From: a virus
DNA: 21,216 nt
IMG/VR virus record: IMGVR_UViG_3300025890_000190
Coordinates: 1-21,216 of that record
Strand: one strand, 5' to 3'
The notes under the pieces are model-generated. The model saw only the letters and a list, made by a program, of their open reading frames with translations. It was not told the DNA's origin and made no database searches. Below, piece by piece: positions 2,458 through 16,398 of this stretch; positions within the stretch are counted from its first letter, which is position 1; every line of letters starts with the position of its first letter. Both the position numbers and the translations under genes were made by a program.

Positions 2458-4676
2458 TATCGTCTTCCTCCAGCGTGTATATCTAACCTAAAAGTCCCTA
2501 ATTTCCAACTGGTATCTACTGCAGTATTAGATATTGTAAGAGCGATAGCTCTTGCTCTAGCTCGTGTGTCTACTTTTGTAGTGCCAGATGTAATATTAAA
2601 AGGTCCAAGCGATGAACTAGATGCAGTGTCATTAGGATAATTTCTTAAATCTAATTGTACAATAGAGGTTCCTTGTTGAGATATAAAATCAGGTATAATT
2701 CTACTAACTCTCATGATATTTTCACCATCACCTCTAAGGTCACCTAAATTAGTTGCTGCACCTCTAACAACTTTTTGCGTAATGTCATAATCACCAGAGG
2801 TAATATTAGCGGGTATGGCTGTTGTTACTCCAAGTCTTATTTGATTAACTCCTGTTTCATGTTCATAATAATACGTAATCCCCTCTGTATTACCTGTTAC
2901 ATCAAACGAAGTATCTGTGCCTGCATCATACTGAGTTGCATGAGGTAAACCAAATACAGATGAATCTTGCCATGCTGATCTAATAAATAAAGAGCTTGCA
3001 TTTACAAACCATATAGGTCGTTTAGCAGTAGAATCTAAATAACTATATGTAACTGATTGTGTATTGACGTTAGAATTTGCTTCTGGATAAAACCATGTAA
3101 CTTCACCAAACAAATTATTAATCCCAGCATAAATCATTTGATTAGATGTCGTGTTAAGACTATTGTAAACATAATCTTCTACTAAACAATCCATAGATTC
3201 TAGTTTACCAGTGTATCTAAAAAAACCATTTTCAGACATCCAATACGCAGCACCATCAACTTCAACGGCTGCATTCATACCAATTAATCCACAGTTAGTA
3301 CCAACTTGTTCATAAGCAAAAGTAAAAGGAGTACCTACAAAACGCATGGTAAATAAAGCAGTATCACTCCAAACATAAATTGCATTTCTACCAAGTTCAA
3401 CTCCCATGATTCGTGATCCGTCGGCCAGTCTTTGTGTACCAGCACTATTGGTTGCTGTAGGTGCATAATCATTTATATTTTCTTGAGACGAGAATCTTAT
3501 AAACATATCGTCTTGTGATGTTTTATCTCCAATAGTTGTTTCAGTTCCAAAAAATACTAAGTGACGGTCAGGAGTAGATACTAACATATCTCTAGATGCG
3601 GTTGGTGCACCAGTAATAATTGTAGCTCTCGTTTGTGTAGCGTTAGCTAAATCTGCATTCCATTCAAAACATTCACCATTAAATATTAAAGCAATAAGCG
3701 TACTTCCTAAATTATCTAAAGCCCACATACCAGGCTCTGCAACTTTATCAGTAGATGTAGCTGCTGAACCCCATCCGGAAAAACCACTGTAGTTAGTTAC
3801 GGTAGCTCCGTTACTGTGAGAAGCATTAGCTGTTCCTCTAACATTTCTAGTTATTCCTGTAAAACTAGTTGCTGTAAGTCCTGTGTAAGATATTTCTTCA
3901 TTATCTACTTTTATAAAATTTGTTCCTGTGCTTGGAAATCCCGTAGTGCTAGCCACATTAATTGTAGTTCCTGATCCACCAGTTCCAGCAGAGTCAGCAT
4001 TTAATGCTCCATTTAAAGTTGTTGTTTGTGGATTAGTAACTGAACCGCCCCATTGAGATATACCATAACCAAAAACTCCAACCTGTTCAGCAGGACCAAC
4101 ATGGTAATATTGAAAATAAGTCATGCCTCCAGAAGTAGTTGCCCCACCTCCTGTTTCAGTAGCACCAGCGTTAAATTCTAAAGTTGTAGTTGATGGCACT
4201 GCAGTGATCATAAATTTTTTATCAGCAAACGTAGAGGCTGAAAAATTAGATCCCGTGATAGCGCTAAAAGTAGATGCGGCTCCAAATAAAATAATATCTC
4301 CTACAGAAAAATTGTGTGCAGAAGGAAAACTTAAAGTAATAGTTGATTGACCATTGGTTGTACTAAAAAAATTAGTAGCCGCAGTTCCTGATGGATTAAC
4401 TAAAGGATGTATATCATAGTATACTCCTCCAGAATATACATATAAAATTCTATTTGTGCCAATGGCAGCGTATTTAATACCTTGTTTATTAACCATATGA
4501 TGCAAGCCTCTAGCTGCACCGGTTAATTTACTATCTCCTAATTGGGACCAACCGCCTATTTTTTCAGGTGTACCATATCTAAAACGTACATTTTCTCCAC
4601 CTGTCCATTGAGATTCAGCGCCTGTAGATGTAACTTGTTTGTTGAATCCTGGTAAAAATCCTAATTTTTGTAACAT
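2457..4676 (-). CDS. Phage tail/neck structural protein, P22 gp10-like candidate (739 residues)
   Basis: The product starts MLQKLGFLPGFNKQVTSTG, followed by the conserved-looking ESQWTGGENVRFRYGTPEKI and GGW (to about residue 43). This start is typical of a large tail protein of marine podovirus-like phages. Repeated short beta motifs such as YAAIGTNRILYVYSGG (69-84) and STPDRHLVFFGTE suggest a propeller-like fold as in tail-hub or DNA-stabilisation proteins (P22 gp10 type); that comparison is inference. An apparent inserted domain at about 237-295 reads TTINVASTTGFPSTGTNFIK and then VDNEEISYTG...RGTANASHSNGA, a unit seen in many phage surface proteins. Its start lies 49 bases from the GTG of the divergent plus-strand sulfotransferase gene. 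It is the first structural gene after the enzyme cassette and may have its own promoter. Confidence 0.85.
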   Translation of the reverse strand: MLQKLGFLPGFNKQVTSTGAESQWTGGENVRFRYGTPEKIGGWSQLGDSKLTGAARGLHHMVNKQGIKYAAIGTNRILYVYSGGVYYDIHPLVNPSGTAATNFFSTTNGQSTITLSFPSAHNFSVGDIILFGAASTFSAITGSNFSASTFADKKFMITAVPSTTTLEFNAGATETGGGATTSGGMTYFQYYHVGPAEQVGVFGYGISQWGGSVTNPQTTTLNGALNADSAGTGGSGTTINVASTTGFPSTGTNFIKVDNEEISYTGLTATSFTGITRNVRGTANASHSNGATVTNYSGFSGWGSAATSTDKVAEPGMWALDNLGSTLIALIFNGECFEWNADLANATQTRATIITGAPTASRDMLVSTPDRHLVFFGTETTIGDKTSQDDMFIRFSSQENINDYAPTATNSAGTQRLADGSRIMGVELGRNAIYVWSDTALFTMRFVGTPFTFAYEQVGTNCGLIGMNAAVEVDGAAYWMSENGFFRYTGKLESMDCLVEDYVYNSLNTTSNQMIYAGINNLFGEVTWFYPEANSNVNTQSVTYSYLDSTAKRPIWFVNASSLFIRSAWQDSSVFGLPHATQYDAGTDTSFDVTGNTEGITYYYEHETGVNQIRLGVTTAIPANITSGDYDITQKVVRGAATNLGDLRGDGENIMRVSRIIPDFISQQGTSIVQLDLRNYPNDTASSSSLGPFNITSGTTKVDTRARARAIALTISNTAVDTSWKLGTFRLDIHAGGRR

Positions 4677-4725
4677 AAAACCTATTATATTGCTATTATA
4701 CCTAAAATCTACTATTTTCTTATAC
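4677..4725. promoter_or_regulatory. AT-rich divergent intergenic region, candidate promoter(s)
   Basis: This 49-base stretch separates two divergent starts, the 739-residue tail gene (minus) and the sulfotransferase (plus). It is the only divergent junction in the window. On the minus strand an exact TATAAT lies at 4700-4695, about 18 bases before the ATG at 4676. The hexamer 17 bases further upstream (ATAAGA) matches TTGACA at only three of six places. In DNA this AT-rich a TATAAT can occur by chance, so this is only a candidate. No clear plus-strand promoter is visible, and neither gene has a good Shine-Dalgarno sequence. Confidence 0.3.
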
Positions 4726-5319
4726 GTGTTAGTAAATAAAAATCTATTTTATATTCACATTCCAAGAACTGGTGGTCGTTTTATAAGTCATTTGTTTATA
4801 AAAAACAAATTTAATTGTGAATTTCATCAATTTACCAATTACTATGATGACCCTTTAAAAAAATTAATTGAAGTTCCTCATTTAGAATATCCATATTATG
4901 GGCTTTTATATAATCATGAAACTATGACTAAGTTTTCCGTGGTCCGTGATCCAGTAGACAGGTTTATATCTATGTTATCTTGTACAAAACCTACTGAACA
5001 AAACTTAGATAACATATTTAACAGCCAACAAAGTTTAGATGAGTTTATAAATTATAGAATTACAAAGACAAAAAGTAATTGGTTTGTGCCACAGTGCAAA
5101 TTTGTATCTCATGACACAAAAATATGGGCCTACGAAAAAGGTCTACAAGACAATTTTTTTAAATGGATAAAGATTAACTTTAATATTAAATTTAAAAATA
5201 CTAATATAAAATATGACAAAGTTGAGTATGATTTTTATGACAAGATAGAACTATCTAATAAACAAAAAGACCTCGTTAAAAATTATTATTACCAAGATTA
5301 CAAAGTATTTACTTTATAA
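4726..5319 (+). CDS. Sulfotransferase-like protein (197 residues), only plus-strand gene
   Basis: The N-terminal FYIHIPRTGGRFIS (residues 8-21 from the chosen start) matches the PAPS 5'-phosphosulfate-binding loop (IPKTGGT type) of Sulfotransfer_2-like enzymes. VVRDPVDRFISML (72-84) matches the 3'-phosphate-binding motif, with Arg74 and Ser82. The family transfers sulfate from PAPS to a hydroxyl or amine. I chose GTG at 4726 because it places the loop close to the N-terminus, as is usual. An ATG at 4639 in frame would add 29 residues but lies inside the divergent tail gene. No Shine-Dalgarno sequence is visible for either. The 3' end overlaps the convergent methyltransferase gene by 11 bases. 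It differs in sequence type from the two other sulfotransferases of the cassette, so it is not a recent copy of them. Confidence 0.75.
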   Translation: MLVNKNLFYIHIPRTGGRFISHLFIKNKFNCEFHQFTNYYDDPLKKLIEVPHLEYPYYGLLYNHETMTKFSVVRDPVDRFISMLSCTKPTEQNLDNIFNSQQSLDEFINYRITKTKSNWFVPQCKFVSHDTKIWAYEKGLQDNFFKWIKINFNIKFKNTNIKYDKVEYDFYDKIELSNKQKDLVKNYYYQDYKVFTL

Positions 5320-5872
5320 AAACCCACGTATCATCCCACACCACAACACTATTTTTTATTTTATTGTCTTTTAAAAAGTTATGTAATGCTTTCATAATTG
5401 TAGGATTTCTAGCATCATGTCCTGCATAGATACCACCTTTTTTAACTTTACAATACCAATCAGTTATTTCTTTATAAGCTTGTTCATAACTAAGATAACT
5501 GTCAATAAATATAAAATCTAATTTATTGTTTTTTATTTTAGACAAAGCTTTGTTAGTTGTCATTTCTAACATTTTAACTCTGTCCTCTACCCCTGAGTAT
5601 TTAATATTATGATAAGCTAAAAATTTTACAATTTCCATTTCCTTTTGATCTCTAGAATAATAGTCGGTAGCTATGTGGTCTTCATAAGGTTGAAATGCAT
5701 CAACACCATACATTAATTTTACATTAGGTAAAGCTTGTAAAACAGCTAACATACTTTGAGCTTTAAATGTACCGAGCTCACACCCTATTAGATTTTTACC
5801 ATGTGTTCCTATTAAAGGTATTAAACTTCTTATGTCTGCACCAGGTACATCAAACTTATATCTTTCGATCAT
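5309..5872 (-). CDS. SAM-dependent methyltransferase, Methyltransf_24-like (187 residues)
   Basis: Motifs of a class I Rossmann methyltransferase appear in order: CELGTFKAQS (31-40, SAM-binding motif I), YGVDAF (55-60), LDFIFIDSYLSYEQA (118-132, like the IDxxHSYE segment) and KKGGIYAGHDA (144-154). This order and the short length fit the Methyltransf_24 / macrocin-O-methyltransferase-like group, which methylates oxygen or nitrogen on small molecules and sugars. His in IDGxHSY is replaced here by Leu (SYLSYE). The start overlaps the end of the upstream oxygenase by 17 bases, and the end overlaps the plus-strand sulfotransferase by 11. It is the last minus-strand gene of the cassette. A cephalosporin-hydroxylase-like relative is an alternative, since that group has a similar layout. 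Substrate unknown. Confidence 0.8.
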   Translation of the reverse strand: MIERYKFDVPGADIRSLIPLIGTHGKNLIGCELGTFKAQSMLAVLQALPNVKLMYGVDAFQPYEDHIATDYYSRDQKEMEIVKFLAYHNIKYSGVEDRVKMLEMTTNKALSKIKNNKLDFIFIDSYLSYEQAYKEITDWYCKVKKGGIYAGHDARNPTIMKALHNFLKDNKIKNSVVVWDDTWVFIK

Positions 5873-6383
5873 TAATCCATCCTATTATATTTAAATTAAA
5901 AGGTATAGCATATTTAGTGCCTCTTTTTAAAATACCTGTTCCATGTTCCAACATACCTGAAAAAAATAATAACATATTTTTTTTTGGTAATATTTTTAAT
6001 TTAATTTCTGGAAATTCTATGGGTGTTGTAGAGTCAGTTAAATAAATAATACCAGAATAATCTACATTATGAACATGAAATGAAGTGCTATCTCCTTTTT
6101 TCATTTTAATACCCCATGCTTCTTCAAGGTTGCAGTGTGGTATATCTACGTTTTCTTTATTAAATGTTTTAGTTAATAATTGTTGAAATTTTTTATCTGT
6201 TTTAAAAAAATCAAATTCTGTCATACCACCCTTGATATTAGTTTTACGATTTAAATTAGTAGATAAATTTTTATCTATTTTGTTTATAAAATATTTAGTG
6301 TCTAGGTTATTATAAAACCCTTCATAAAATCTTACAGGTTTAACAATTTCACGATCTAATAATTTTGTTTGTTTTAATTTCAT
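5856..6383 (-). CDS. 2-oxoglutarate/Fe(II) oxygenase-like protein, HxH type (175 residues)
   Basis: The core reads STSFHVHNVDYSGIIYLTD (99-117), then ILPKKNMLLFFSGMLEHGTG (131-150). His103 and His105, followed by SGIIYL, fit the HxH...SGVYYL pattern of the 2OG-FeII_Oxy_5-type group. His147 is the distal metal ligand, and Arg154 or Lys157 is a candidate contact for the 2-oxoglutarate carboxylate. Such enzymes usually hydroxylate an unactivated carbon. The gene starts within ATGA (6380-6383) at the stop of the upstream oxygenase and ends inside the methyltransferase gene. The N-terminal 80 residues are Lys/Asn-rich and not recognisable. Substrate unknown. Confidence 0.75.
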   Translation of the reverse strand: MKLKQTKLLDREIVKPVRFYEGFYNNLDTKYFINKIDKNLSTNLNRKTNIKGGMTEFDFFKTDKKFQQLLTKTFNKENVDIPHCNLEEAWGIKMKKGDSTSFHVHNVDYSGIIYLTDSTTPIEFPEIKLKILPKKNMLLFFSGMLEHGTGILKRGTKYAIPFNLNIIGWINDRKI

Positions 6384-6916
6384 TTAACAAGTTCACCACA
6401 AAATTTTACAGATATTCGTGGAATGTATGGTTTATTAAATGCATCAGCTCTGTGTATCTCTGCAGCATTAAACGTAAAGACTCGACCGTGTTTAAAAGAA
6501 ACTTTTTTATTTTGAGTCTTGTTTATAAACTGACCTCCAGGACTTTTAGGTAAATCTTCATTGCACAGCATTAATATAAATACTTGGTGATCAGAATTAC
6601 CGTCACAATGAAACGTACCATCAGAACCATAAAATTGTAGGTTAGCAGATATTTGTTTTAAATATAAATCAACATTAAAACATTTACATAAATGTTCAAA
6701 CAAATTAATAAATTTAGGAGTAAGAGATGTTGTCTTAGCAGTGTAATGATTTTCTCTTAAATATATATCATTAACCATTAATAAATGACTTCCTTTATCT
6801 CCATACGGAAAAGTGTTTCTATTGGCTATGTTGTCTGCAAACCAAGGACTTTTTAATAAATCATAATAAAGTTCGTCAGCAAATCTTTTGTCTAAAATAT
6901 TATCTAAAGTATGCAT
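6380..6916 (-). CDS. 2-oxoglutarate/Fe(II) oxygenase, HxD type (178 residues)
   Basis: The double-stranded beta-helix core is clear. GTFHCDGNSDHQVFILMLCN (100-119) contains His103-x-Asp105. PGGQF (126-130) is the usual turn, and HGRVFTFNAAEIHRADAF (143-160) carries the distal His155. PRISVKF (166-172) carries Arg167 for 2-oxoglutarate. The complete HxD...H...R set predicts an active hydroxylase. It follows the halogenase gene with a one-base TAATG overlap at 6916 and precedes the next oxygenase with an ATGA overlap, so it is likely co-translated with both. Similar proteins are frequent in marine phage genomes, mostly without a known substrate. Confidence 0.85.
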   Translation of the reverse strand: MHTLDNILDKRFADELYYDLLKSPWFADNIANRNTFPYGDKGSHLLMVNDIYLRENHYTAKTTSLTPKFINLFEHLCKCFNVDLYLKQISANLQFYGSDGTFHCDGNSDHQVFILMLCNEDLPKSPGGQFINKTQNKKVSFKHGRVFTFNAAEIHRADAFNKPYIPRISVKFCGELVK

Positions 6917-8322
6917 TACATTTCAAAAAAGTCAGAGTGTTTTATAGATTGTTTAAAGTTAATTTTATTTGTATCTATGTAATCTTTCATAGATGGAAAC
7001 GGATTGTAAAAAGTCATATCTTTCTTTTTTTTAATTAGACCTAAAGCATGGCTGACAACAATATGACCAATGTAAGTAAAATACAAATTGCCTTTTTGTG
7101 ATAATAGATCTGGTATTGTAAAAGAACCATCTTCTATTTTTTTTATTATAGGTTTTAATTTTGCAGGCATGACCGTATTTTTTCTAAAGTCTTTCCAAAA
7201 CGGACTGTCTTTTCTTTTTGTCATGTAATGTAAATATAAAAAACTTAAAATGTTGTCGTTGTTTTCTGCAACAATTTCATTGTATTTATCTAATGACCCT
7301 TGATTTAAAGTTTTTATATTTGACAGAAAATGTTGTAATAATTGTAAAGAAGATAAAGCCAACCAAATGCTTGTAGCTTCTAAAGGTTCAGTAAAACCTG
7401 TGCTTAGTCCTACTGCTAAACAATTACCAACCCATACTTTTTTATATCTACCAGCATCAAATTTAAACGAAGGTCGTAATGCTTTTAGATCTTGTTTAAA
7501 ATATTTACTGGCTTCAGCTATGGCTTGGTCCTCATTAATATAATCAGAATCGTAAATATAACCTGACCCCCATCTTTCTTGCAAAGGTATTTTCCACACC
7601 CAACCATATTTCATTGCCACCGCTTCAGTGTAAGGAATTAAATCTTTGTCATGTTTTAACTTGAATGGAACTGCTCTTTTCATTGGCAAGTGTTTTTGAT
7701 AACTTACCCAAGGAGTATTAAAGTGTTTGCCTATTAACAATCTAGCAAAACCACTGCAATCAAATATAAAATCACAATCAAATTTTCTTTTGTCAGTTAA
7801 AACTATAGACTTAATTTTATTTTTACCAATAGCTTTTTTGTATTCCCCTTCTATTCTTTTTACCCCTCTGCCTATGGCAATAGATTTAAGATATTTTGCT
7901 ATTTGATGTGCATCAAAATGTAAAGCATATGTACAATTGTTAGGGTCAATGCGATTAGCATAACTTATTTTATTTGCGTATAAAAAATCATCTATGTTTT
8001 TATTTTTGTTTAATGCTTCATGTAACAGATAACTTGTTTCATCACCTGTAAACGGATGAAAGTATTGTTTATTATCACCATTCCAATTTTTAAAACTAAT
8101 ACCATTTTTAAACGTACCACCTGTTTTTTTAATTAGATCTAATGGATCTATATCTAAAAAACGTAGACTTTCTATAACACCTGGAGTCGTACCTTCTCCT
8201 GCACCTAGAATACCTATTTTATCAGATTCAATTAATGTTACATCGTGTCCATAAAAATATTTATTACAATACAAAGCTGTAAACCACCCTGCAGCTCCCC
8301 CGCCTAATATAACTATTTTCAT
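6916..8322 (-). CDS. FAD-dependent halogenase, tryptophan-halogenase family (468 residues)
   Basis: The family signatures are complete. GGGAAGW (7-13) is the FAD-binding GxGxxGW motif, and GGTFKNGISFKNW (68-80) carries Lys72, which aligns with the catalytic Lys79 of PrnA. GWVWKIPL (240-247) is the WxWxIP motif that separates halogenases from monooxygenases. GNCLAVGLSTGFTEPLEATS (299-318) has Glu315 in the place of PrnA Glu346. The enzyme is expected to oxidise halide through a flavin hydroperoxide and halogenate an electron-rich ring. It would need reduced flavin from a host reductase, since none is visible here. At 468 residues it is shorter than the roughly 510-540 of bacterial tryptophan halogenases, closer to the phage type. 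A cyanophage member (VirX1) has been reported to act on diverse substrates, preferring iodide. Joined by ATGA (8319-8322) to the upstream sulfotransferase and by TAATG to the downstream oxygenase. Confidence 0.92.
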   Translation of the reverse strand: MKIVILGGGAAGWFTALYCNKYFYGHDVTLIESDKIGILGAGEGTTPGVIESLRFLDIDPLDLIKKTGGTFKNGISFKNWNGDNKQYFHPFTGDETSYLLHEALNKNKNIDDFLYANKISYANRIDPNNCTYALHFDAHQIAKYLKSIAIGRGVKRIEGEYKKAIGKNKIKSIVLTDKRKFDCDFIFDCSGFARLLIGKHFNTPWVSYQKHLPMKRAVPFKLKHDKDLIPYTEAVAMKYGWVWKIPLQERWGSGYIYDSDYINEDQAIAEASKYFKQDLKALRPSFKFDAGRYKKVWVGNCLAVGLSTGFTEPLEATSIWLALSSLQLLQHFLSNIKTLNQGSLDKYNEIVAENNDNILSFLYLHYMTKRKDSPFWKDFRKNTVMPAKLKPIIKKIEDGSFTIPDLLSQKGNLYFTYIGHIVVSHALGLIKKKKDMTFYNPFPSMKDYIDTNKINFKQSIKHSDFFEM

Positions 8323-9068
8323 ATGTCGTACCCTTTATATTTATCTATAATAGATTGAGGCAATACATCTTTGTAAGAATACTTTCTTTTAGATATATCG
8401 TCAGTTCTAATTGTATGAAGCGAATAGCCTAACACATCATCTTTGTACTTTATGCCGTTTGCTTCAAACTGTTTAAGTTTTTTTAATTCTATATTTGCAT
8501 GCAAATATTTACTAAGATCTTTTAAAAATGTTTTAGTGTTGTTAACTAAATCATCATAATAAAAAATTTTATAATCTTCTTTGTTTTCTATTATATTTTT
8601 ATTACTAATAAGGTAATGCATCATAATGCCCGATCCATAACCAGCGCCACCATGGTGATACATTAAAGAATGACATCTTTTTTCTACGTCTTTTACCTTT
8701 TCCGCTAATACCATAGACGCTAGACATTCTAATATAGGTCTATGTAGGATTATAAATTTAGGTTTTTGGTAAACTTTTTTTAAACATTTAAGATTAGCTG
8801 GAGTGCCCCAAGGGCCTCTATCTATAACATGTGTAGATCTCCAATCTGCATAATAGTTATTAAATACATTAACAGATATATTATCTAAAGATTTTTGATC
8901 AGGAAAATTTTTATATATTTCAGAGTCTTTCAACGTTTCTAAATTATACATAACGTCAGTAAGAATTGTGTTAGCTGACATTTTTACATAAGGGTTTTGA
9001 TTTATTATAGATCCTAGAAGCGTGTTGCCTGCACGAGGAAGTGATGATAAAAAATACATGTTCATCAT
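8319..9068 (-). CDS. Sulfotransferase-like protein (249 residues), paralogue 1
   Basis: The N-terminus has SSLPRAGNTLLGSIINQNP (8-26), a standard PAPS-binding loop (PRxGxTLL). FIILHRPILECLASMV (105-120) is the 3'-phosphate-binding motif with Arg110 and Ser118. The segment VIDRGPWGTPANL (81-93) recurs almost unchanged in the other minus-strand sulfotransferase at 11646-12377, together with SIINQNP and IRTD. The two are therefore paralogues from a duplication that has since diverged. It probably transfers sulfate from host PAPS to a hydroxyl on an unknown acceptor. ATGA overlaps join it to the JmjC-like gene upstream and the halogenase downstream. The length (about 250 residues) is normal for soluble sulfotransferases, and no membrane anchor is present. 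Confidence 0.8.
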   Translation of the reverse strand: MMNMYFLSSLPRAGNTLLGSIINQNPYVKMSANTILTDVMYNLETLKDSEIYKNFPDQKSLDNISVNVFNNYYADWRSTHVIDRGPWGTPANLKCLKKVYQKPKFIILHRPILECLASMVLAEKVKDVEKRCHSLMYHHGGAGYGSGIMMHYLISNKNIIENKEDYKIFYYDDLVNNTKTFLKDLSKYLHANIELKKLKQFEANGIKYKDDVLGYSLHTIRTDDISKRKYSYKDVLPQSIIDKYKGYDI

Positions 9069-9478
9069 AATGTATAATCAACACTCATTGATATACCTGC
9101 TCTTGGTCCTTTAGCTTCTACGCCATGCCATGTTTTTTTAGGTATATAAAGTAAGTCTCCTGTATTTAATTTTATTTTACGGTCATCAAATATCCAATTA
9201 GATATTCCTTTTACTTGCCAGAAATAAACATCTACACCATCCCAATGTCTACCCATAGTATCACCCTCACACAAATTAATGTATAAGTGAGCATCATTTA
9301 AATTTAATTTTTTAAGAACAGGTTTTACTTCTTTTATTTTTTTAGCTTGATGAGATATTAAAAAACCAGGACACTTGTGTTTAACAATTTTTTTATTTTG
9401 TATAGACCAATTTAAATTATCTAAAATCGTTTCCCACGACGGCACATTCATATTATATTTTTTAGTGTGTTTAATCAT
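9065..9478 (-). CDS. Mini JmjC/cupin-like Fe(II) oxygenase (137 residues)
   Basis: The core reads HLYINLCEGDTMGRHWDGVD (64-83), then VYFWQVKGISNWIF (84-97) and GDLLYIPKKTWHGVEAKGPR (107-126). His78-x-Asp80 and distal His118 form the metal triad. The pattern HxDxxDVFxxQxxGxxxW resembles the JmjC/Cupin_4 group that includes ribosomal oxygenases such as YcfD, which hydroxylate a protein side chain. At 137 residues it is much shorter than those enzymes (over 350) and lacks the usual dimerisation and winged-helix parts, so it is close to a bare catalytic core. It could instead be a plain cupin. It overlaps the upstream oxygenase by 8 bases and the downstream sulfotransferase by ATGA. Confidence 0.75.
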   Translation of the reverse strand: MIKHTKKYNMNVPSWETILDNLNWSIQNKKIVKHKCPGFLISHQAKKIKEVKPVLKKLNLNDAHLYINLCEGDTMGRHWDGVDVYFWQVKGISNWIFDDRKIKLNTGDLLYIPKKTWHGVEAKGPRAGISMSVDYTL

Positions 9479-9998
9479 GAAAGCAGCTGTTAAATGATAT
9501 TATAGTTTTTCTTTTTGTACTTTTAAATTTAGGTGAAGTATGTAAGACATGTCCTGGCAAAGTAACTAACGTTCCTTCTTTAGCCTCAATAGTATTAATT
9601 TCATCTGTAAAAGGATTTTTTATTTTTGTAAACATAGATTTTGTTGGAGCTTCTACATAATAAATATTAGTCCAATTAGTTTTATCGTGTCTATGCCAAT
9701 TGTGATAATCCATTTGTTTATATTGTTGATACCAGCCATTCCAAATTGACCATTGTTTAGCTTTTAATTGTTTAGCTATTTCAAACATTGTGGGTCTAAT
9801 GTTATTATAAAAATAAGTTAGGTATTCTCGTTTATAATTTTTAGGTAAATTCCAATCGGTTTTACTAATACATTCTGTTTTAGTTACAAAACGATTGTTA
9901 GGCATTTTGTTTATTAATTGTAATAATCTTTTGTTAAAAGATTTGTAACCATCAATAGAATTTAACATATAAAAATCTTGAAAATATTTTACTTTCAT
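9471..9998 (-). CDS. 2-oxoglutarate/Fe(II) oxygenase-like protein, HxH/HD type (175 residues)
   Basis: The segment WYQQYKQMDYHNWHRHDKTN (89-108), followed by WTNIYYV (109-115), matches a phage-type 2OG oxygenase in which the first metal ligands fall in the HNWHRHD stretch (His99, His102, His104, Asp105). EGTLVTLPGHVLHTSPKF (141-158) holds the distal His153, and Arg163 in TKRKTIISFN is a likely 2-oxoglutarate contact. The exact first ligands cannot be fixed without an alignment: His102-x-His104 aligns best with the HxH group, but Asp105 is adjacent. It joins its upstream neighbour by ATGA (9995-9998). Cyanophages carry similar proteins next to tail genes, with no assigned substrate as far as I recall. 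Confidence 0.78.
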   Translation of the reverse strand: MKVKYFQDFYMLNSIDGYKSFNKRLLQLINKMPNNRFVTKTECISKTDWNLPKNYKREYLTYFYNNIRPTMFEIAKQLKAKQWSIWNGWYQQYKQMDYHNWHRHDKTNWTNIYYVEAPTKSMFTKIKNPFTDEINTIEAKEGTLVTLPGHVLHTSPKFKSTKRKTIISFNSCFHD

Positions 9999-10558
9999 AC
10001 AAATGTAATTACAGCTACTACCCTTCTTTCCATAGGTTTACAAAACGAAGCTGTGTGATAGTATTTACCATCCCAACATACAGCTTTGCCAAACTCTGGT
10101 TTTATTCTTTTAAGAATTTTTAATTTTTTTGTAACATCTAATACTGTTTTTTTACCATTGTAAATTTTATCAAATATTAAAGTATCTCCTGACGTATCAT
10201 TTAGATACAACATAAAAACTTTATGGGGAAAATCATGGTCTACATGTGGATCACCGTTTTTATATTTACCATGAAAATGCGTAAGATTAATACATGCTCT
10301 AGTTACTTTATCTATTTTTATCTCATGTTCATCTACAAATCTTTTAAACATATTTAATATGTGAGGAGTAATATCAGAATTAAATACAGGCTCACCTTTA
10401 GTATGATCGTATCTTTGTATTAAACCATGAGAAAAAAAATGAAACTTGTTAGATGTAGAGCTTGGTTGAAAATACCAAGGAAAGTTATCTCCTAAAACAG
10501 TTTGTTTAAGTTGGTATATTTCTTCGTCAAATAAAAATCTTTTACTTTCTGTAATCAT
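9995..10558 (-). CDS. 2-oxoglutarate/Fe(II) oxygenase, HxD type (187 residues)
   Basis: GDPHVDHDFPHKVFMLYLND (102-121) carries His105-x-Asp107 and the typical strand that follows. SGDTLIFD (123-130), FGKAVCWDGKYYHTASF (156-172) with distal His168, and RRVVAVITF (178-186) with Arg178/179 complete the set. All residues needed for Fe(II) and 2-oxoglutarate are present, so an active hydroxylase is expected. The motif pattern is close to that of the enzyme at 6380-6916 (HCDG...FNAAEIHRADAF), suggesting the two arose from the same group. ATGA overlaps connect it on both sides. The acceptor is unknown. Confidence 0.85.
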   Translation of the reverse strand: MITESKRFLFDEEIYQLKQTVLGDNFPWYFQPSSTSNKFHFFSHGLIQRYDHTKGEPVFNSDITPHILNMFKRFVDEHEIKIDKVTRACINLTHFHGKYKNGDPHVDHDFPHKVFMLYLNDTSGDTLIFDKIYNGKKTVLDVTKKLKILKRIKPEFGKAVCWDGKYYHTASFCKPMERRVVAVITFV

Positions 10559-11121
10559 TTAAAAGGATCTCCTAACGCCCATGCAACTAAAGCATATCTT
10601 GTTCCTTTTTTTACAGGTTTAACTGTATGCATTGTAGGACTGGGAAATACTACAACACTTCCTTTGTTTTTAAATTTAATAGGTTTAAAATCTACTACCT
10701 TACCTCTTTGTAATGTTCTAAATATAAAATCACCTCCAACATAATCTTGTTTACTAGAAAGATTAATAGACATAGATAATTTTCTTATTTTACCATTGTC
10801 AAAAGGTTCTGTAAGAGTATCCTCATGCCAATTAAAATGATCATTTTTATTGTATTGAGCTAATTGTATATCTTCAAACATATCAAATTGATAACGATAA
10901 CCACCTTTCTGATTAGCTTTATCAAAGTAAGGTAATATTAAATCATGAAACATTTGTGGTTTTTTCCATATTACTTGACCTCTGCGTTGTTTATAATCTG
11001 ATTTAACACCTGCTAATGTAGCTTTAGTTTTTTTACTACATTTAATTAAATCAATTATTTCATCACAAACACTTTCTTTAACAACTCTGTCAAAAACGTA
11101 ACAAATATTTTTATGAAGCAT
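10555..11121 (-). CDS. Prolyl-4-hydroxylase-like (PKHD-type) 2OG/Fe(II) oxygenase (188 residues)
   Basis: DIQLAQYNKNDHFNWHEDTL (84-103) contains His99-x-Asp101 in the usual P4H position (QY...Y.WH.D). LSMSINLSSKQDYVGGDFIF (115-134) is the conserved strand-turn (SxxLNLSxxxxYxGGxF). KGSVVVFPSPTMHTVKPVKK (153-172) contains distal His165, and GTRYALVAWALG (173-184) gives Arg175. This is the most canonical 2OG oxygenase of the set, resembling PiuC/PKHD-type proteins and the P4Hc domain. It would hydroxylate a side chain or small molecule. Its start overlaps the previous gene by 11 bases and its stop forms ATGA with the next gene. Confidence 0.88.
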   Translation of the reverse strand: MLHKNICYVFDRVVKESVCDEIIDLIKCSKKTKATLAGVKSDYKQRRGQVIWKKPQMFHDLILPYFDKANQKGGYRYQFDMFEDIQLAQYNKNDHFNWHEDTLTEPFDNGKIRKLSMSINLSSKQDYVGGDFIFRTLQRGKVVDFKPIKFKNKGSVVVFPSPTMHTVKPVKKGTRYALVAWALGDPFK

Positions 11122-11674
11122 CGGGTAGTATCCAATTAAACCAACCAGTAATTATTTGTTTAGTTTCATTAAAATCTATTACACCTTGATGGGTAAACGT
11201 CCAATCCGCTGGCCATATTAAAGTTAATCCTTTTTTTCCTTCTTGATAATAATCTTGGTATTTAAAATATGTTCCATTACTATCTGTTAAATAAGTCATA
11301 AATACTAGTAATCTAGTAAAGGTATGGTTTTCTCTTTCAAAATGAGGTTTGTAAAAACCTTGTCCAGGTTTGTATTGTTGAATATTTATAGGCTCTATTA
11401 TACCCCATCTGTTAGTGGCTTGTTCTAATTCAGGATATTTAAATTTGTATGTATTAGTTACTTTAACTAAGTCATTGCTGTAAAGTGGTAAGTCATCATA
11501 AAGTTCATCAGGACTTAAAGATAAATCTCTTGACTCTTTTACGTCAGCTTGAACCAAACCCTCACCACACGTACCTTCTTTAATTCTTTTTTTATTTTTT
11601 TTGTAGTACTTAACTACTTCGTCAACAGCTTTAGAACTAATAGTTTCAGAGTGAATAAACAAAGGACTTTTCAT
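11111..11674 (-). CDS. Prolyl-4-hydroxylase-like 2OG/Fe(II) oxygenase with HxE triad (187 residues)
   Basis: INIQQYKPGQGFYKPHFERE (96-115) matches the P4H pattern QYxxGxxYxxHxD, but with Glu113 in place of Asp (His111-x-Glu113). RLLVFMTYLTDSNGTYFKYQ (121-140) is the next strand and turn. GLTLIWPADWTFTHQGVI (149-166) holds His162, and Lys172 in TKQIITGWF takes the position of the 2-oxoglutarate-binding basic residue, where Lys is usual in collagen-type prolyl hydroxylases. The HxE form is rarer than HxD but can still bind iron. It overlaps the upstream sulfotransferase by 29 bases, the longest overlap in the cassette, and no other ATG exists in the first half of the protein. Substrate unknown. 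Confidence 0.82.
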   Translation of the reverse strand: MKSPLFIHSETISSKAVDEVVKYYKKNKKRIKEGTCGEGLVQADVKESRDLSLSPDELYDDLPLYSNDLVKVTNTYKFKYPELEQATNRWGIIEPINIQQYKPGQGFYKPHFERENHTFTRLLVFMTYLTDSNGTYFKYQDYYQEGKKGLTLIWPADWTFTHQGVIDFNETKQIITGWFNWILPDAS

Positions 11675-12377
11675 ATTTTTTAATTACCTCTAGTGGCACT
11701 TTTCTAATAAACTTGTGTTTTATAGATTTAATTTTGTCAGTCCTTATTTTAGTTTGTTCGTGTTTTTCGTCTATCTGATCTAAATCCTCATACCTATGTT
11801 TTTTATAATAAGGTATTTTTAAAAACTTATATAATTCTTTGACAATCTTTTGAGGTTGTTTACAAAAATCATGGTAGTTAATAATCAACACATTTTTTTC
11901 TTTAACTTCTTTTAAATAATTTAAACCTAAAACAGATTTACCAATCGGTCCAGATTCATGCATTAAATAATCACAAAAGTTTTCTACATGATGTGGTTTA
12001 GGTCTAACAACTCTACAAAAAGATTCTAGTATTTCTCGAAGTGGTCTTACCAAATATATAAATTTTCCTTTGTAACCCATGTACTTTAACAATTCATAAT
12101 TAGCAGGTGTACTCCAAGGGCCTCTGTCTATAATAGCTTTAGCTTTAGAATCTTTGTAATAGTTTTGAGGAATAGCACTTAATACATTCTTAAAAGATTT
12201 TTCATCTTTTTGTTCTTGATAAATAGTTCCTTCTTGTAAAAGATGCATGTTGTAAATCATTTCTGGTACAATGCTGTTAGGACTAATATTAAGTTCTGGA
12301 TTTTGATTTATAATAGATGTTAATACGGTATTACCGCATCGCATGTAACCACATAAAAAAAACATATCTTTCTTCAT
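11646..12377 (-). CDS. Sulfotransferase-like protein (243 residues), paralogue 2
   Basis: The PAPS-binding loop is CGYMRCGNTVLTSIINQNP (9-27), which aligns with SLPRAGNTLLGSIINQNP of the paralogue at 8319-9068. Here the loop proline is replaced by Met and a Cys follows the Arg. FIYLVRPLREILESF (106-120) holds the 3'-phosphate motif with Arg111 and Ser119, and AIIDRGPWSTPAN (81-93) is the shared paralogue segment. The core resembles other PAPS sulfotransferases in length. The loop change is conservative (the RxGNT part is intact), so activity is still plausible. It starts by ATGA (12374-12377) after an oxygenase and ends inside the next oxygenase gene. Acceptor unknown; a difference in acceptor from the paralogue is likely but not shown. 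Confidence 0.77.
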   Translation of the reverse strand: MKKDMFFLCGYMRCGNTVLTSIINQNPELNISPNSIVPEMIYNMHLLQEGTIYQEQKDEKSFKNVLSAIPQNYYKDSKAKAIIDRGPWSTPANYELLKYMGYKGKFIYLVRPLREILESFCRVVRPKPHHVENFCDYLMHESGPIGKSVLGLNYLKEVKEKNVLIINYHDFCKQPQKIVKELYKFLKIPYYKKHRYEDLDQIDEKHEQTKIRTDKIKSIKHKFIRKVPLEVIKKYEKSFVYSL

Positions 12378-12859
12378 ATTTTAATATCCCATGATATAAT
12401 TGTCCTCTTTATACTCTTCTTAATTGGATTTGTAAAGTGTAATATGTGTGCAGGAAATATTATAATGTCTCCTTCTTTTATTGTAGGTGTGACAATTACA
12501 GTTTTATTAGTTATCGGATCATTCCAAGGTTGAATAAAAGAAGTTCCTATATCGGTATCAAGATACAGTATTGCAGAATATCCTAAACTTCCGTGGGTGT
12601 GTGGTTGGTGAAAATCATTTTTATGATATTGAACAGACCACATATCGGTAACAGAAAATTTACCTATCATATTTTTTATATCATTCATTTCTACTTGTAG
12701 TATTTTTAATACTTCATTTTTATATTTAGAAATCTTTCTATCTGTTTTTATATTGTCTTCCTTATACCTCTGTCCTAAAAACTTATTTATTCTAGCTTTT
12801 TTAATTAACCAGTTTTTACAACTAAGTTTGTGATAAGGTATACTAAATAAAGGTTCCAT
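12374..12859 (-). CDS. 2-oxoglutarate/Fe(II) oxygenase-like protein, HxH type (161 residues)
   Basis: WSVQYHKNDFHQPHTHGSLG (74-93), followed by YSAILYLD (94-101), is a clear match to the HxH...SGxxYL oxygenase pattern, with His87 and His89 the candidate first ligands. IKEGDIIIFPAHILHFTNPI (127-146) carries the distal His141, and Arg152 (KRTIISWD) fits the 2-oxoglutarate-binding position. It is most like the cassette's first gene (LHTHGGEDFSLIYYI). It starts 17 bases before the stop of the carbamoyltransferase gene and ends in an ATGA overlap with the sulfotransferase. No Shine-Dalgarno sequence is visible, so translation probably depends on coupling. Confidence 0.8.
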   Translation of the reverse strand: MEPLFSIPYHKLSCKNWLIKKARINKFLGQRYKEDNIKTDRKISKYKNEVLKILQVEMNDIKNMIGKFSVTDMWSVQYHKNDFHQPHTHGSLGYSAILYLDTDIGTSFIQPWNDPITNKTVIVTPTIKEGDIIIFPAHILHFTNPIKKSIKRTIISWDIKI

Positions 12860-14384
12860 TATTTTTGTGTAAATAGTTTATTTCTGGCATGTATAAATAT
12901 TTAAGATCGGTTGTATTTAACATCTCAATAGCTTGATTATAATTATTAATCATTGGTTTACCGGCAATATTTAACGAAGTGTTTAAAAGTACAGGACATT
13001 TTGTTTTTTTATACCATGTTTTTAACAACCTATAAAACATAGGATTTTGTGTTTGTGTTAGCGTTTGGACTCTACAAGTATTATCAACGTGTGTTATGCC
13101 AGGGATAATTTTAGGTTTTTTTACTTGTGCAGTATAACTCATAAAAGGTGTTTCTTCTTTAGGTAAATCAAACCAATGTTTATAGTGTTCTTTTAATACT
13201 GTACCGGCGTAGGGTCTATACCATTCTCTTCTTTTTAATTGATTTACTATTTCTTTTGCTTGTGGATTCATGGGGTTAAACAATAAAGATCTATTACCCA
13301 AGGCTCGAGGACCTGCTTCTTGTTTTCCTTGAAACAATGCAACTATATTATTATTCAATAATAAATCTACTATCTCATCAACATTAGTATTTTTATCTAA
13401 CAACGGATAGTCTGTCTCTAATCCTAAATACAAATTATCATATGGTTTAACTTTGATATTGTTATCCATGGCTGCAAGCAAAGCTAAACCCATAGATGTT
13501 CCTCCATCGTGAGCTATAGGATCTACAAATATATTTTTATAATGTCTAAGAGCATGACCGTTTGATTGACAGTTTTGAAAATAACCACCAGACAAACATA
13601 TATTAGCTTTTTTATTTTTTCTTAATATTTTTTCTATTCTATTAATAACAAGTTCGTTAGATTCTTTTTGTATACTATGTGTTATTTTATACTTGTCATG
13701 ATTTAATTTTACCATCATCTGCCACAACAAACTTTGATTAACTTTATACAGATCATTGTTTTTATAATAAACAGGAATGTTTAAACCTGTGTTACTATAC
13801 GAGGACAAACCCATTACAGAACCTGGTTCGTTAGAATCTAAATATTTTGCAGCATATTTAAAAAGTAAACCTGGACTCATACTTTGTATGCTGTGTATGT
13901 TTTCTGTATAACTTTTATCTTGACCAACACAAACTTTCCATTCTAAACTAAATTTATTGTTTTTTATTTTATAAATACTTTCTATTTCAGGTCCTATGTT
14001 TTTTCCCTGCCAATAAAAAGGAGTACCACTTCCATCCATAACTAAACAATAAGCATCTTTATATCCACTATTAAAATAAGCAGAAGCTGCGTGTTGTAAA
14101 TGATGATGTAGATTATATTGAATGCTATTATAGGTTATGTTGTATTTTTCACAATTTAAGGAAATAAAATCTTTGTATTGTTGTGCTGTTTCATGATTAA
14201 GTTTAGCATGACTAAAAACAATTATATCGTAATATTGATTAGATAATTCTTTCCATAAAAATTTAATATTGTAATCTTTCTTAATACCAGACAGCATAGC
14301 TTCTTCTTGATAGAAAGTAATACGATTGTTATCTATGATACAAGCACTGGCATCATGTGCACACTGTAAACCTAATATTTTCAT
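12843..14384 (-). CDS. O-carbamoyltransferase, NodU/CmcH/TobZ family (513 residues)
   Basis: Two-domain carbamoyltransferase, apparently full length. The Kae1-like N-terminal domain shows GLQCAHDASACIIDN (5-19), HHHLQHAASAYF (93-104) and MDGSG (116-120). Later segments are CLSGGYFQNCQSNG (263-276) and DPIAHDGGTSMG (288-299). The YrdC-like C-terminal domain shows QGKQEAGPRALGNRS (352-366) and PVLLNTSLNIAGKP (464-477). The family makes carbamoyl-adenylate from carbamoyl phosphate and ATP and moves the carbamoyl group to a hydroxyl of an antibiotic, Nod factor or sugar. I chose the ATG at 14384 because it forms the ATGA junction with the upstream gene and begins MKILGLQ as relatives do. An ATG seven codons earlier (14405) gives an atypical leader. 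Confidence 0.9.
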   Translation of the reverse strand: MKILGLQCAHDASACIIDNNRITFYQEEAMLSGIKKDYNIKFLWKELSNQYYDIIVFSHAKLNHETAQQYKDFISLNCEKYNITYNSIQYNLHHHLQHAASAYFNSGYKDAYCLVMDGSGTPFYWQGKNIGPEIESIYKIKNNKFSLEWKVCVGQDKSYTENIHSIQSMSPGLLFKYAAKYLDSNEPGSVMGLSSYSNTGLNIPVYYKNNDLYKVNQSLLWQMMVKLNHDKYKITHSIQKESNELVINRIEKILRKNKKANICLSGGYFQNCQSNGHALRHYKNIFVDPIAHDGGTSMGLALLAAMDNNIKVKPYDNLYLGLETDYPLLDKNTNVDEIVDLLLNNNIVALFQGKQEAGPRALGNRSLLFNPMNPQAKEIVNQLKRREWYRPYAGTVLKEHYKHWFDLPKEETPFMSYTAQVKKPKIIPGITHVDNTCRVQTLTQTQNPMFYRLLKTWYKKTKCPVLLNTSLNIAGKPMINNYNQAIEMLNTTDLKYLYMPEINYLHKNNGTFI

Positions 14385-14971
14385 TGTGTAATTTTTGTGT
14401 TCCAAGCTAAACTAATTCTATCTTCATCACTTTTATTAGATTCTACAGAGTGAGCTAACCAACTAGGAAATATTATAAGATCATATTTTTTAGGAACATA
14501 ACGTATTTCTGGAGAATTAAAAAAAGGTTGGTTGTTATATTTTAATTCACTTGTTCTAAGATGAAGTACGGGAGTTTCAAATACTATTGCACCAGAATTT
14601 TGAGGAACTTGTATGTAATATATTAATGAAAAATCCTCACCTCCATGAGTGTGTAATGCATTAAAAGATTCTTTTTTATTTATATTTATCCAAGGTAAAT
14701 GATTATTACAAGACCATGGTTTTAACAGTCCTATTTCTTCAGCAAACTCTGTAAAATATTTTTGAGTGCTTTTTATTAAATCTTCTAATAACTTATCTTT
14801 TAAAAAGTCAGATTGATAACCTGATCTATTACTTTTTTTAACTCCTTCAAATTTATTAACTTGATAAGCTAATCTTTTTAAACTGGCATTTATTTTTTTA
14901 TGAGATTTTTTTAAATTAAAAATAAAAAAAGGAGTGCCAAATAAATTATAAATCTGTCTTTCGTTACTCAC
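14381..14971 (-). CDS. 2-oxoglutarate/Fe(II) oxygenase, 2OG-FeII_Oxy_5-like, HxH type (196 residues)
   Basis: First gene of the cassette. The product begins SNERQIYNLFGTPFFIFNL and contains FNALHTHGGEDFSLIYYIQV (103-122), the HxH...SxxYY segment with His107 and His109. YDLIIFPSWLAHSVESN (163-179) holds the distal His174, and DRISLAWN (184-191) has Arg185. The ending IFPSWLxHxVxPN...RISLAWN is a hallmark of this group. No ATG exists anywhere in the frame: the start is GTG at 14971, which I chose because the protein then begins close to the family start, or TTG at 14989. Neither has a Shine-Dalgarno sequence. It lies 34 bases after the last gene of structural block 1 and overlaps the carbamoyltransferase by ATGA. 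Confidence 0.78.
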   Translation of the reverse strand: MSNERQIYNLFGTPFFIFNLKKSHKKINASLKRLAYQVNKFEGVKKSNRSGYQSDFLKDKLLEDLIKSTQKYFTEFAEEIGLLKPWSCNNHLPWININKKESFNALHTHGGEDFSLIYYIQVPQNSGAIVFETPVLHLRTSELKYNNQPFFNSPEIRYVPKKYDLIIFPSWLAHSVESNKSDEDRISLAWNTKITQ

Positions 14972-15005
14972 GAGTGTTTTATAACACAATTATATTATTT
15001 GTAAA

Positions 15006-15614
15006 TTAAAGAGAAGGACTCCAGGCCGTACCATTCCAATTTCTTTTAGAGCCATCGTTGTGCCAACCCCACCAAACTTGGTTTTCTTCGTCCCATTGAA
15101 CAGGTATTCTGTTTTCTGGTAAAGTAATTTCATCTCCATCGGTATTTGTTACAGTCACGTAATTTATACCTTGGATAAATCCATTTTCATTTGTAGGATT
15201 TACAGGTCTTTGAGTAACAGGATCTAGAATAGACTCAAAAGAATCACTTCCATAATATCTTTGTTCTTCTGTAGGTTCTGCTACAGGTGGTTGCCATTGA
15301 TAATTTCCATCTAGCACCCAACTATCAAAAGGTTTAGAGTCTATAAAAACATCGTTTGCTGGGTCATATGTGCCCCCTATTTTAGCAGCATTGCCTCTGT
15401 AAGGGTCACCTGAAGGAGCATTTACAAATCTGCTATTTCCCACAGTCCACATAGAATATTTTTTGATATTAGCTGTTTGATCGTTTAAAAGATTTCTTAA
15501 AAATTCAACACCTTTTGCTTCGTTTTCTACACCCTCTACAGAGCAATCTATATCAGAGACTCTGTATAAATCAGTTACCACATTATTGCTATCTAGTTTA
15601 CAAAAATTTGCCAT
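15006..15614 (-). CDS. Conserved phage virion protein (202 residues), last gene before the enzyme cassette
   Basis: The product begins MANFCKLDSNNVVTDLYRVS and contains IGGTYDPANDVFIDSKPFDS (78-97) followed by WVLDGNYQWQPPVAEPTEEQ (98-117). This segment resembles a small protein common in cyanophage and pelagiphage structural regions (there read as GxxYDxxxDxFIxPKPxxSWxL...WxxPxPxP), so I call it a conserved virion protein. The C-terminus is Trp-rich (VWWGWHNDGSKRNWNGTAW). It begins one base after the stop of the glycine-rich gene. It ends at 15006 with no hairpin terminator before the cassette, so transcription probably continues into it. Function in the particle unknown; a fibre-tip or decoration role is possible. 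Confidence 0.83.
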   Translation of the reverse strand: MANFCKLDSNNVVTDLYRVSDIDCSVEGVENEAKGVEFLRNLLNDQTANIKKYSMWTVGNSRFVNAPSGDPYRGNAAKIGGTYDPANDVFIDSKPFDSWVLDGNYQWQPPVAEPTEEQRYYGSDSFESILDPVTQRPVNPTNENGFIQGINYVTVTNTDGDEITLPENRIPVQWDEENQVWWGWHNDGSKRNWNGTAWSPSL

Positions 15615-15615
15615 A

Positions 15616-16398
15616 TTAAGCTATCCTATAACTAATCCAAACTGCACCATTTGCTCCGGTTCCGCCTCCAGCCCAAGAATAGCCGCCTCCGCCGCCAGCT
15701 CCTGGACGCTGTCCGCTCCCGGCCTGCCAGCTTCCGCCGCCACCTGTTCCGCCTGTACGATAGCCACCTCCGCCACCGATTAGCGCTCCAGAGTTTGGAT
15801 CGTCAGCATATTGAGTAACTCCCGGTCCACCTGTAGGTCCGTCAGGCGCATTTCCTCCCGCACCTGCTCCAGATCCTGCTGATCTAGATGCTCCCGATCT
15901 ACTTGATCCATTGAAATCTGAATTATTTCCACCGTTTCCACCTCGGGCACCGCCGCCGTTTCCAGCGTTGGCCGTAGTGCTAAATGCAGTTGTGTTTCCT
16001 CCTGCTGAACCAGCAGATCCTTGTTGTGCTCCATTACCGTTTTGAGGTCCACCGGTACCTACTGTAAATGCAAAGTTACCTGTAGCAGCACCTATTCCTT
16101 GTTGGTTTAATCTTACGACACCAGCACCACCTCCCGCTCCATCTGGAGCATGAACCGATCCACCGCCACCAGATCCACCACCACCAGCGATAAATCTATT
16201 TATGACATTAAAACCAGGTTTAGATGGTACTTTCGATACTGAAAAAGTACCGCTAGTATTAAATTTGTGTAGTTGATATTCGTTACCACCGCTATTGATA
16301 GTAGTAACAGTTCCACCATTAGCTAGGATTATGTTTAGTCCGCCTCCGAATCCAAACCCTCTAGCTGATCCACCACCTCTTGTGCTTATTAATGGCAT
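15616..16398 (-). CDS. Glycine-rich phage tail-tip/adhesin-like protein (260 residues)
   Basis: The product begins MPLISTRGGGSARGFGFGGG. It has a short beta segment (about 36-66: TINSGGNEYQLHKFNTSGTF and on) and then a long Gly/Ser/Ala-rich region (about 70-255) with many GGG runs. It ends GGYSWAGGGTGANGAVWISY. The pattern, a small beta unit ending in VWISYR-type residues behind Gly runs, resembles the glycine-rich C-terminal domains of phage and bacterial adhesins. A receptor-contact role is inferred. The gene is visibly richer in G+C than its neighbours, above all at 15640-15780, partly because of Gly codons (GGN). The start at 16398 has AGGAG about ten bases upstream. Confidence 0.8.
   Translation of the reverse strand: MPLISTRGGGSARGFGFGGGLNIILANGGTVTTINSGGNEYQLHKFNTSGTFSVSKVPSKPGFNVINRFIAGGGGSGGGGSVHAPDGAGGGAGVVRLNQQGIGAATGNFAFTVGTGGPQNGNGAQQGSAGSAGGNTTAFSTTANAGNGGGARGGNGGNNSDFNGSSRSGASRSAGSGAGAGGNAPDGPTGGPGVTQYADDPNSGALIGGGGGYRTGGTGGGGSWQAGSGQRPGAGGGGGYSWAGGGTGANGAVWISYRIA

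Follow-up and report, generated by a model that had tools for sequence, protein, structure and literature searches.

Gene content and integrity of the locus

The viral contig IMGVR_UViG_3300025890_000190 was analysed over its whole length of 21,216 bases, which is called the window here and contains an incomplete phage genome. Positions 4726–14989 are filled by 15 open reading frames (ORFs), referred to as the cassette. As assigned with Pfam and PHROGs, they encode eight 2-oxoglutarate (2OG) oxygenase-type proteins, one JmjC/cupin protein, a halogenase (HAL), a carbamoyltransferase (CT), a methyltransferase (MT), and three sulfotransferases (ST_A, ST_B, and ST_C). Fourteen of the 15 genes are located on the minus strand, ST_A is the sole plus-strand gene and starts with GTG at 4726, and neighbouring ORFs overlap by 1–29 nt at every pair. 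Both flanks consist of virion genes (phrog_3287 and phrog_10775). A preliminary description of this DNA had reported an oxygenase/halogenase/sulfotransferase/carbamoyltransferase set of 15 genes within a tail-gene block, and all 15 ORFs, their families, and the virion flanks were confirmed. The true start of CT is probably an ATG near 14384, judging from the alignment. Promoter-like and terminator-like sites in the window were not above chance frequency. The coordinates are summarized in Table 1.

The GC content is 28.1% in the cassette and 35.6–38.7% in the flanks, and all five other cassette contigs that were measured show this shift. The change is abrupt at both ends, as in an assembly chimera of a bacterial operon and a phage, an alternative that the preliminary description had itself raised. 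However, independent contigs cross both junctions (retrieved loci are numbered with an L). L305 spans tail739, ST_A, MT, and c03 with 98.5% nucleotide identity over window positions 2430–6298, and L306 covers the junction of tail739 and ST_A into c04 with 87.4% nucleotide identity over 2451–6898. ST_A has the same position and strand in both contigs. The junction of T1 and c15 is identical in arrangement in L002, L003, L005, L143, and L146. The chimera was therefore rejected, and its probability is practically negligible.

Table 1. Genes of the cassette and of its flanks in the window
Gene	Position	Strand	Assignment and remarks
c01 ST_A	4726..5319	+	Sulfotransfer_2 / galactose-3-O-sulfotransferase-like; PF03567 3.6e-6, above cut-off; phrog_3347
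c02 MT	5309..5872	-	Class I S-adenosylmethionine (SAM) O-methyltransferase-like (Methyltransf_24/TylF); L002 copy 93% identical
c03	5856..6383	-	2OG-Fe(II) oxygenase-like; phrog_81; HxH motif
c04	6380..6916	-	2OG-oxygenase-like; no Pfam match; invariant HxD...H...R
c05 HAL	6916..8322	-	Flavin-dependent halogenase, PrnA/RebH/VirX1 family
c06 ST_B	8319..9068	-	Sulfotransferase-like; PAPS-loop-like LPRAGNT; below Pfam cut-off
c07	9065..9478	-	Small JmjC/cupin-like; JmjC_2 4.9e-12; L002 copy 99% identical
c08	9471..9998	-	2OG-FeII_Oxy_5-type; HxH motif
c09	9995..10558	-	2OG-oxygenase-like; HxD...H...R
c10	10555..11121	-	2OG-FeII_Oxy_3, PKHD-hydroxylase-like (HxD); Pfam 1.3e-14; NCBIfam PRK05467 group below cut-off
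c11	11111..11674	-	2OG-FeII_Oxy_3-like (HxE); below Pfam cut-off
c12 ST_C	11646..12377	-	Sulfotransfer_1/3; Pfam 9e-12 and 4.5e-9, above cut-off
c13	12374..12859	-	2OG-FeII_Oxy_5; HxH; present in divergent L143 and L146, absent from L002 and L003
c14 CT	12843..14405	-	O-carbamoyltransferase, NodU/TobZ/GdmN type; Carbam_trans_C 5e-55, Carbam_trans_N 8e-14
c15	14381..14989	-	2OG-FeII_Oxy_5 / TIGR02466; Pfam 9e-20; TIGR02466 above cut-off; HxH
T1	15006..15614	-	Putative tail-tip protein, phrog_7759, Trp-rich; co-inherited with cassette; candidate substrate
GLY	15616..16398	-	Glycine-rich putative tail-tip protein (PF21722 Gly_rich_2); co-inherited with cassette; candidate substrate
t3	16420..17499	-	Putative tail protein; left exchange breakpoint in 3' part
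tail739	2457..4676	-	Virion structural protein (phrog_3287); hotspot boundary, backbone marker

A conserved cassette exchanged together with putative tail-tip genes

The same set and order were looked for in other genomes, and an ordered unit was found instead of scattered genes. Contigs from different metagenomes (L002/L005, L003/L140, L004/L142, L143, and L146) keep the cassette genes in one order. The protein identity to the window is 59–99% in L002, 47–85% in L003, 54–71% for the shared core of L004, and ~45–59% in L143 and L146; a ten-gene order is retained at ~50% protein identity. Overall, six contigs preserve the order, with protein identities of 45–99%. CT, ST_C, c11, c09, ST_B, and the halogenase gene form a core that is present in all cassettes, and c15, c13, and c04 are usual members. 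A conserved unit therefore holds for these genes but not for the rest of the slot, which varies: c07 and c08 are limited to the window, L002, and L003; c02 occurs in the window, L002, L305, and L306; and ST_A occurs in the window, L305, and L306. A collection of scattered unrelated genes was rejected for the core because the order is conserved. The ratio of nonsynonymous to synonymous substitution rates (dN/dS) is 0.03–0.28 for every cassette gene common to the window and L002, with several dS values near saturation, and the shared genes are under purifying selection. L146 (contig 3300021356_000201) belongs to a different phage, although it likewise has 21,216 bases.

The enzymes, GLY, and T1 follow one pattern of identity, in which the window and L002 are close, L140 comes next and then L142, and L143 and L146 are nearly identical to each other. 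The pattern of tail739 differs. Its window copy is 44–47% identical to all others, while the identity is 72% between L002 and L143, 76% between L140 and L146, and 55% between L143 and L146. In maximum-likelihood trees, the enzymes yield the same topology as T1 plus GLY (100% support), whereas the topology of tail739 is different, and the enzyme and tail739 data sets each reject the tree of the other (approximately unbiased test, p = 6.6e-34 and 7.8e-62). L143 and L146 share a continuous 10.9-kb stretch with 94.6% nucleotide identity that begins within the 3' part of t3 and runs through the last oxygenase gene, stopping just short of tail739; outside this block, only short stretches align, at ~72–80%. 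Between the window and L002, the left breakpoint falls in the same region of t3, and the block closes on the right where c02 ends. GLY, T1, the enzyme genes that follow them, and the 3' part of t3 have been inherited and exchanged between distant phages as one block.

The window phage is assigned to the HTVC023P type on the basis of virion genes that are homologous and share one order; its tail739 is 44% identical to those of HTVC027P and 023Pt_psg01, and homologues of t5–t7 are present in order. The cassette site is a general cargo hotspot of such phages: a set of 63 non-redundant slots was assembled, each with t3 or t5 on one side and tail739 on the other. Genes of the 2OG-oxygenase family were found in 60 of them, with ~3 per slot and a maximum of eight. 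When the slots were picked by the backbone gene alone (n = 32, window included), 2OG genes were present in 30, halogenase genes in six, CT genes in four, and sulfotransferase genes in three. The contents are diverse, with 151 orthogroups among 397 non-structural ORFs. GLY stands directly before T1 in 40 places (6 expected by shuffling), and a 2OG gene follows T1 in 22 places (14.1 expected by chance). Once tail739 is corrected for, the distance in T1 correlates with the enzyme content (partial r = 0.215, p = 0.0005). Slots with other tip types (tail-collar, RCC1-like repeat, or another glycine-rich protein) hold the same enzyme classes.

Several minor features of the slots were also observed. 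In the slots headed by a tail-collar gene (L055, L077, L093, L096, L100, L112, and L117), most or all of the oxygenase cargo is on the opposite strand, unlike in the GLY/T1 slots, and arrays of RCC1/beta-propeller-like repeat proteins (~600 aa) replace GLY and T1 in L126, L214, and L226. A protein cluster without a Pfam match (u4; for example, a 211-aa slot ORF of L097) is present in 35 of the 63 slots, and its H-x-D and later His suggest a further 2OG-like oxygenase. The sole match in bacterial assemblies was a contig of a Maricaulis metagenome-assembled genome (L304), with tail739 at 77% identity. It is likely a phage contig binned with that genome and is uninformative on the host.

Catalytic motifs and putative sulfate-activation partners

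Pfam matches were above the cut-off or clear for Trp_halogenase, Carbam_trans_C/N, Sulfotransfer_1/2, Methyltransf_24/TylF, and JmjC_2/Cupin_2, and 2OG-FeII_Oxy_3/5 was assigned in the same manner to c08, c10, c13, and c15. Genes c03, c09, c11, and ST_B scored under the Pfam cut-off. PHROGs placed the cassette oxygenases in the 2OG families phrog_81, phrog_61, and phrog_274. The H-x-D...H...R motif of c04 and c09 is invariant across divergent relatives. Because H-x-H replaces H-x-D/E in c03, c08, c13, and c15, these four are regarded as putative 2OG enzymes. The family phrog_274 is labelled 'DNA endonuclease V', yet its best matches in the cassette (c04, 6380–6916, and c09, 9995–10558) bear the invariant motif, and the label looks wrong.

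The halogenase matches Trp_halogenase (PF04820) at 1e-109. It keeps the GxGxxG motif, the active-site Lys72, the WxWxIP motif, and the catalytic Glu (EPLE), all of which are invariant in four cassettes and line up with those of a Trp-5 halogenase and LooH. The family and the catalytic residues are the same as those of VirX1 (cyanophage Syn10), PrnA, and RebH. However, the profile similarity to the Trp halogenases ends at approximately residue 390 of 468, and the C-terminal part is unaligned. The nearest annotated phage relative is the enzyme of HTVC008M (45%). In this pelagimyovirus (L059:11983-14992), the halogenase gene sits between the genes for the two terminase subunits, and five 2OG/dioxygenase genes are close by. 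CT matches GdmN and TobZ in the PDB and scores beneath the NodU equivalog cut-off. A scan with a single CT sequence and a scan of bacterial genomes returned nothing, probably as a result of overly narrow patterns; a search of viral contigs with an alignment query succeeded.

ST_A and ST_C exceed the Pfam sulfotransferase cut-off. ST_B, just below it, has an LPRxGNT motif that resembles the loop binding 3'-phosphoadenosine 5'-phosphosulfate (PAPS), and it is homologous to ST_C via phrog_27463. In the phage database, the closest sulfotransferases reach 25–32% identity and come from a few records of marine phages. The last two genes in the cassettes of L003 and L004 are small and were named u5 and u7 (L004:11410-12136); the former is not in the window. 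The u5 protein has a conserved P-loop and passes the Pfam cut-off for APS_kinase (adenosine 5'-phosphosulfate kinase; 25.0 vs 21.1 bits), with generic AAA models scoring alike; its structure model is poor and unusable, with a predicted local distance difference test score (pLDDT) of 51. The product of u7 is a nucleotidyltransferase of the cytidylyltransferase-like (HIGH) kind. When u5 alone was used for scanning, 80 loci were returned (for example, L234–L303), and the upstream gene was visible in 72. A sulfotransferase gene is directly upstream of u5 in 60 of these 72, and of the 47 loci whose upstream sequence covers 4 kb or more, 45 have one. The order sulfotransferase–APS-kinase-like–nucleotidyltransferase is strict. 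This linkage is a strong sign that the slot sulfotransferases work as such, with phage genes assisting in sulfate activation, although the reactions themselves are predicted from the sequences. Across the fetched contigs, u5 is 89–100% identical to the L004 copy while the backbone genes differ by half, which suggests that the u5–u7 pair spread recently. A lack of sulfate assimilation has been reported for SAR11; the text of that study gives cysDNCHIJ and sat as missing, but its table lists cysC and cysQ in HTCC1062 (PMC5069961). The dependence of SAR11 on phage PAPS genes is uncertain because of this listing, which weakens the idea that the phage must make PAPS for a host unable to do so.

Possible substrates and comparison with known systems

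We propose that the block is an exchangeable tail-tip and tailoring-enzyme module of HTVC023P-type phages, whose enzymes modify the tip proteins encoded in the same block; the chances for and against this proposal are about equal. The enzymes would be expressed late, together with the virion genes, and would act on newly made GLY, T1, or both, or on a group attached to them. The oxygenases may add hydroxyls, the carbamoyl-, sulfo-, and methyltransferases may cap these hydroxyls or other nucleophiles, and the halogenase may modify aromatic (Trp-like) side chains. Where sulfotransferases occur, the APS-kinase-family protein and the HIGH-type nucleotidyltransferase would probably help to supply PAPS. 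Each phage lineage would thereby get a chemically distinct tip for receptor binding or escape from recognition. More tentatively, tip modules with their own multi-step tailoring (hydroxylation, halogenation, sulfation with sulfate activation, carbamoylation, and methylation) could provide a combinatorial chemical coat that evolves like bacterial O-antigen loci. Genes that build a scaffold (nonribosomal peptide synthetase, polyketide synthase, or sugar synthesis genes) were not seen in the window; therefore, the substrate must pre-exist. The preliminary description had the whole set acting on one product, either a virion protein or glycan or a host surface or metabolite. Because the cassette is co-inherited with GLY and T1, a virion tail-tip protein is favoured as the substrate, but a single common product for all of the enzymes is hypothetical.

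T1 is rich in Trp (4–5%, compared with 1.65% over all slot ORFs), and its fold model is confident (pLDDT 86) and matches solely uncharacterised phage proteins. Neither feature proves that T1 is a substrate, and several points weigh against the proposed module. Neither a substrate nor a modification has been observed so far, and the virion location of T1 is deduced from its gene position and neighbours. The fold search with T1 found no solved structural relative in the PDB. T1 of the halogenase-bearing loci is no richer in Trp; thus, the idea that halogenase-bearing phages have a Trp-richer T1 is unsupported. The correlation between enzyme content and T1 drops when the large cassettes are omitted (partial r = 0.133, p = 0.05). 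GLY and T1 could merely sit between preferred recombination points. In addition, dS differs between genes (0.24–1.39); therefore, smaller exchanges within the cassette also occurred.

Glycans and small molecules are the classical targets of sulfo-, carbamoyl-, and methyltransferases, and the NodU/TobZ-like CT and the galactose-3-O-sulfotransferase-like ST_A are compatible with enzymes that modify the host cell, namely a glycan or lipid of its surface (to exclude superinfection or to alter the adsorption of other phages) or a metabolite during infection. DSL-LC04 and the HTVC isolates carry oxygenases too. However, the strict linkage to and co-inheritance with the tail-tip genes, the location among late virion genes, and the large variety between close phages argue against this explanation, which we consider unlikely. 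A permissive recombination hotspot that gathers unrelated auxiliary genes acting independently would fit the 151 orthogroups and the HTVC008M halogenase gene, which lies near terminase genes and away from the tip. It does not readily account for a ten-gene order held at ~50% protein identity, for a cargo nearly confined to oxygenases and group-transfer enzymes, or for the strict order of the sulfotransferase, APS-kinase-like, and nucleotidyltransferase genes, and it is also rather unlikely.

A role like that of an antibiotic cluster, in which a small molecule is made or tailored and the halogenase, like PrnA or VirX1, acts on free tryptophan or indole, is very unlikely: the halogenase retains the catalytic residues of Trp halogenases and CT resembles GdmN, NovN, and TobZ, but scaffold-making genes were not seen in the cassette contigs, and the C-terminal part of the halogenase is not common to Trp halogenases. 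A 2OG oxygenase and a carbamoyltransferase are a known DNA-modification pair, as in TET/5-carbamoyloxymethylcytosine pathways. Hypermodification of DNA bases by the cassette is nevertheless highly improbable; it is disfavoured by the lack of TET/JBP and cytosine-C5 methyltransferase domains among the Pfam matches of the cassette proteins and by the location in the tail region.

The enzyme classes of the cassette are already known in marine phages. The large numbers of 2OG oxygenases, halogenases, and carbamoyltransferases there are usually explained by host metabolism. Their joint inheritance with putative tail-tip genes, seen here in an abundant lineage, directs attention to the virion itself. 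If the proposed module is correct, the recognition of hosts by phages would draw on a wide range of protein chemistry that has so far gone unconsidered, and halogenases, sulfotransferases, and carbamoyltransferases that modify proteins could be obtained from such cassettes.

HTVC023P-type pelagiphages, the same phage lineage as that of the window, have been described with clusters of non-orthologous 2OG oxygenases and 'ferrochelatase' partners among their auxiliary metabolic genes (Wittmers et al. 2022, PMC9599517). Unlike the ordered and tip-linked cassette, those oxygenase genes are described as close together but non-adjacent and as variable in order, and no inheritance link to a tail tip is reported; halogenase, sulfotransferase, and carbamoyltransferase are unmentioned in the main text. 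HTVC027P and HTVC023P use the same slot 5' of the tail739 homologue, with three and several oxygenase-like genes, respectively; unlike in the window, no halogenase, sulfotransferase, carbamoyltransferase, or methyltransferase is annotated there. The transfer of curli (type VIII secretion system) genes between pelagiphages likewise involves a multi-gene accessory block, but its genes and function differ (PMC9599517). T4-like cyanophages sporadically carry 2OG oxygenases, prnA, and carbamoyltransferase, with a proposed role in 2OG/nitrogen signalling (Sullivan et al. 2010, PMC3037559). These are enzyme classes of the cassette, but they do not form a single ordered cassette, and no sulfotransferase is mentioned (PMC3037559). 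A description uniting halogenase, sulfotransferase, carbamoyltransferase, and phage was not found in the open-access literature (subscription papers and supplements were outside the search), in agreement with the earlier statement that a phage system combining them is not known to have been described. Likewise, we found no description of an ordered multi-chemistry cassette, of its block exchange with tail-tip genes, or of the sulfotransferase–APS-kinase-like–nucleotidyltransferase unit, which appear to be new. In the cyanomyovirus S-MS29 (L227:7995-14462), a carbamoyltransferase, a 2OG oxygenase, a 'ferrochelatase', and a T1-like gene are located together beside tail-fibre genes. Because this carbamoyltransferase and 2OG cluster includes a T1-like gene, the association of tip and enzyme genes may reach beyond the pelagiphages.

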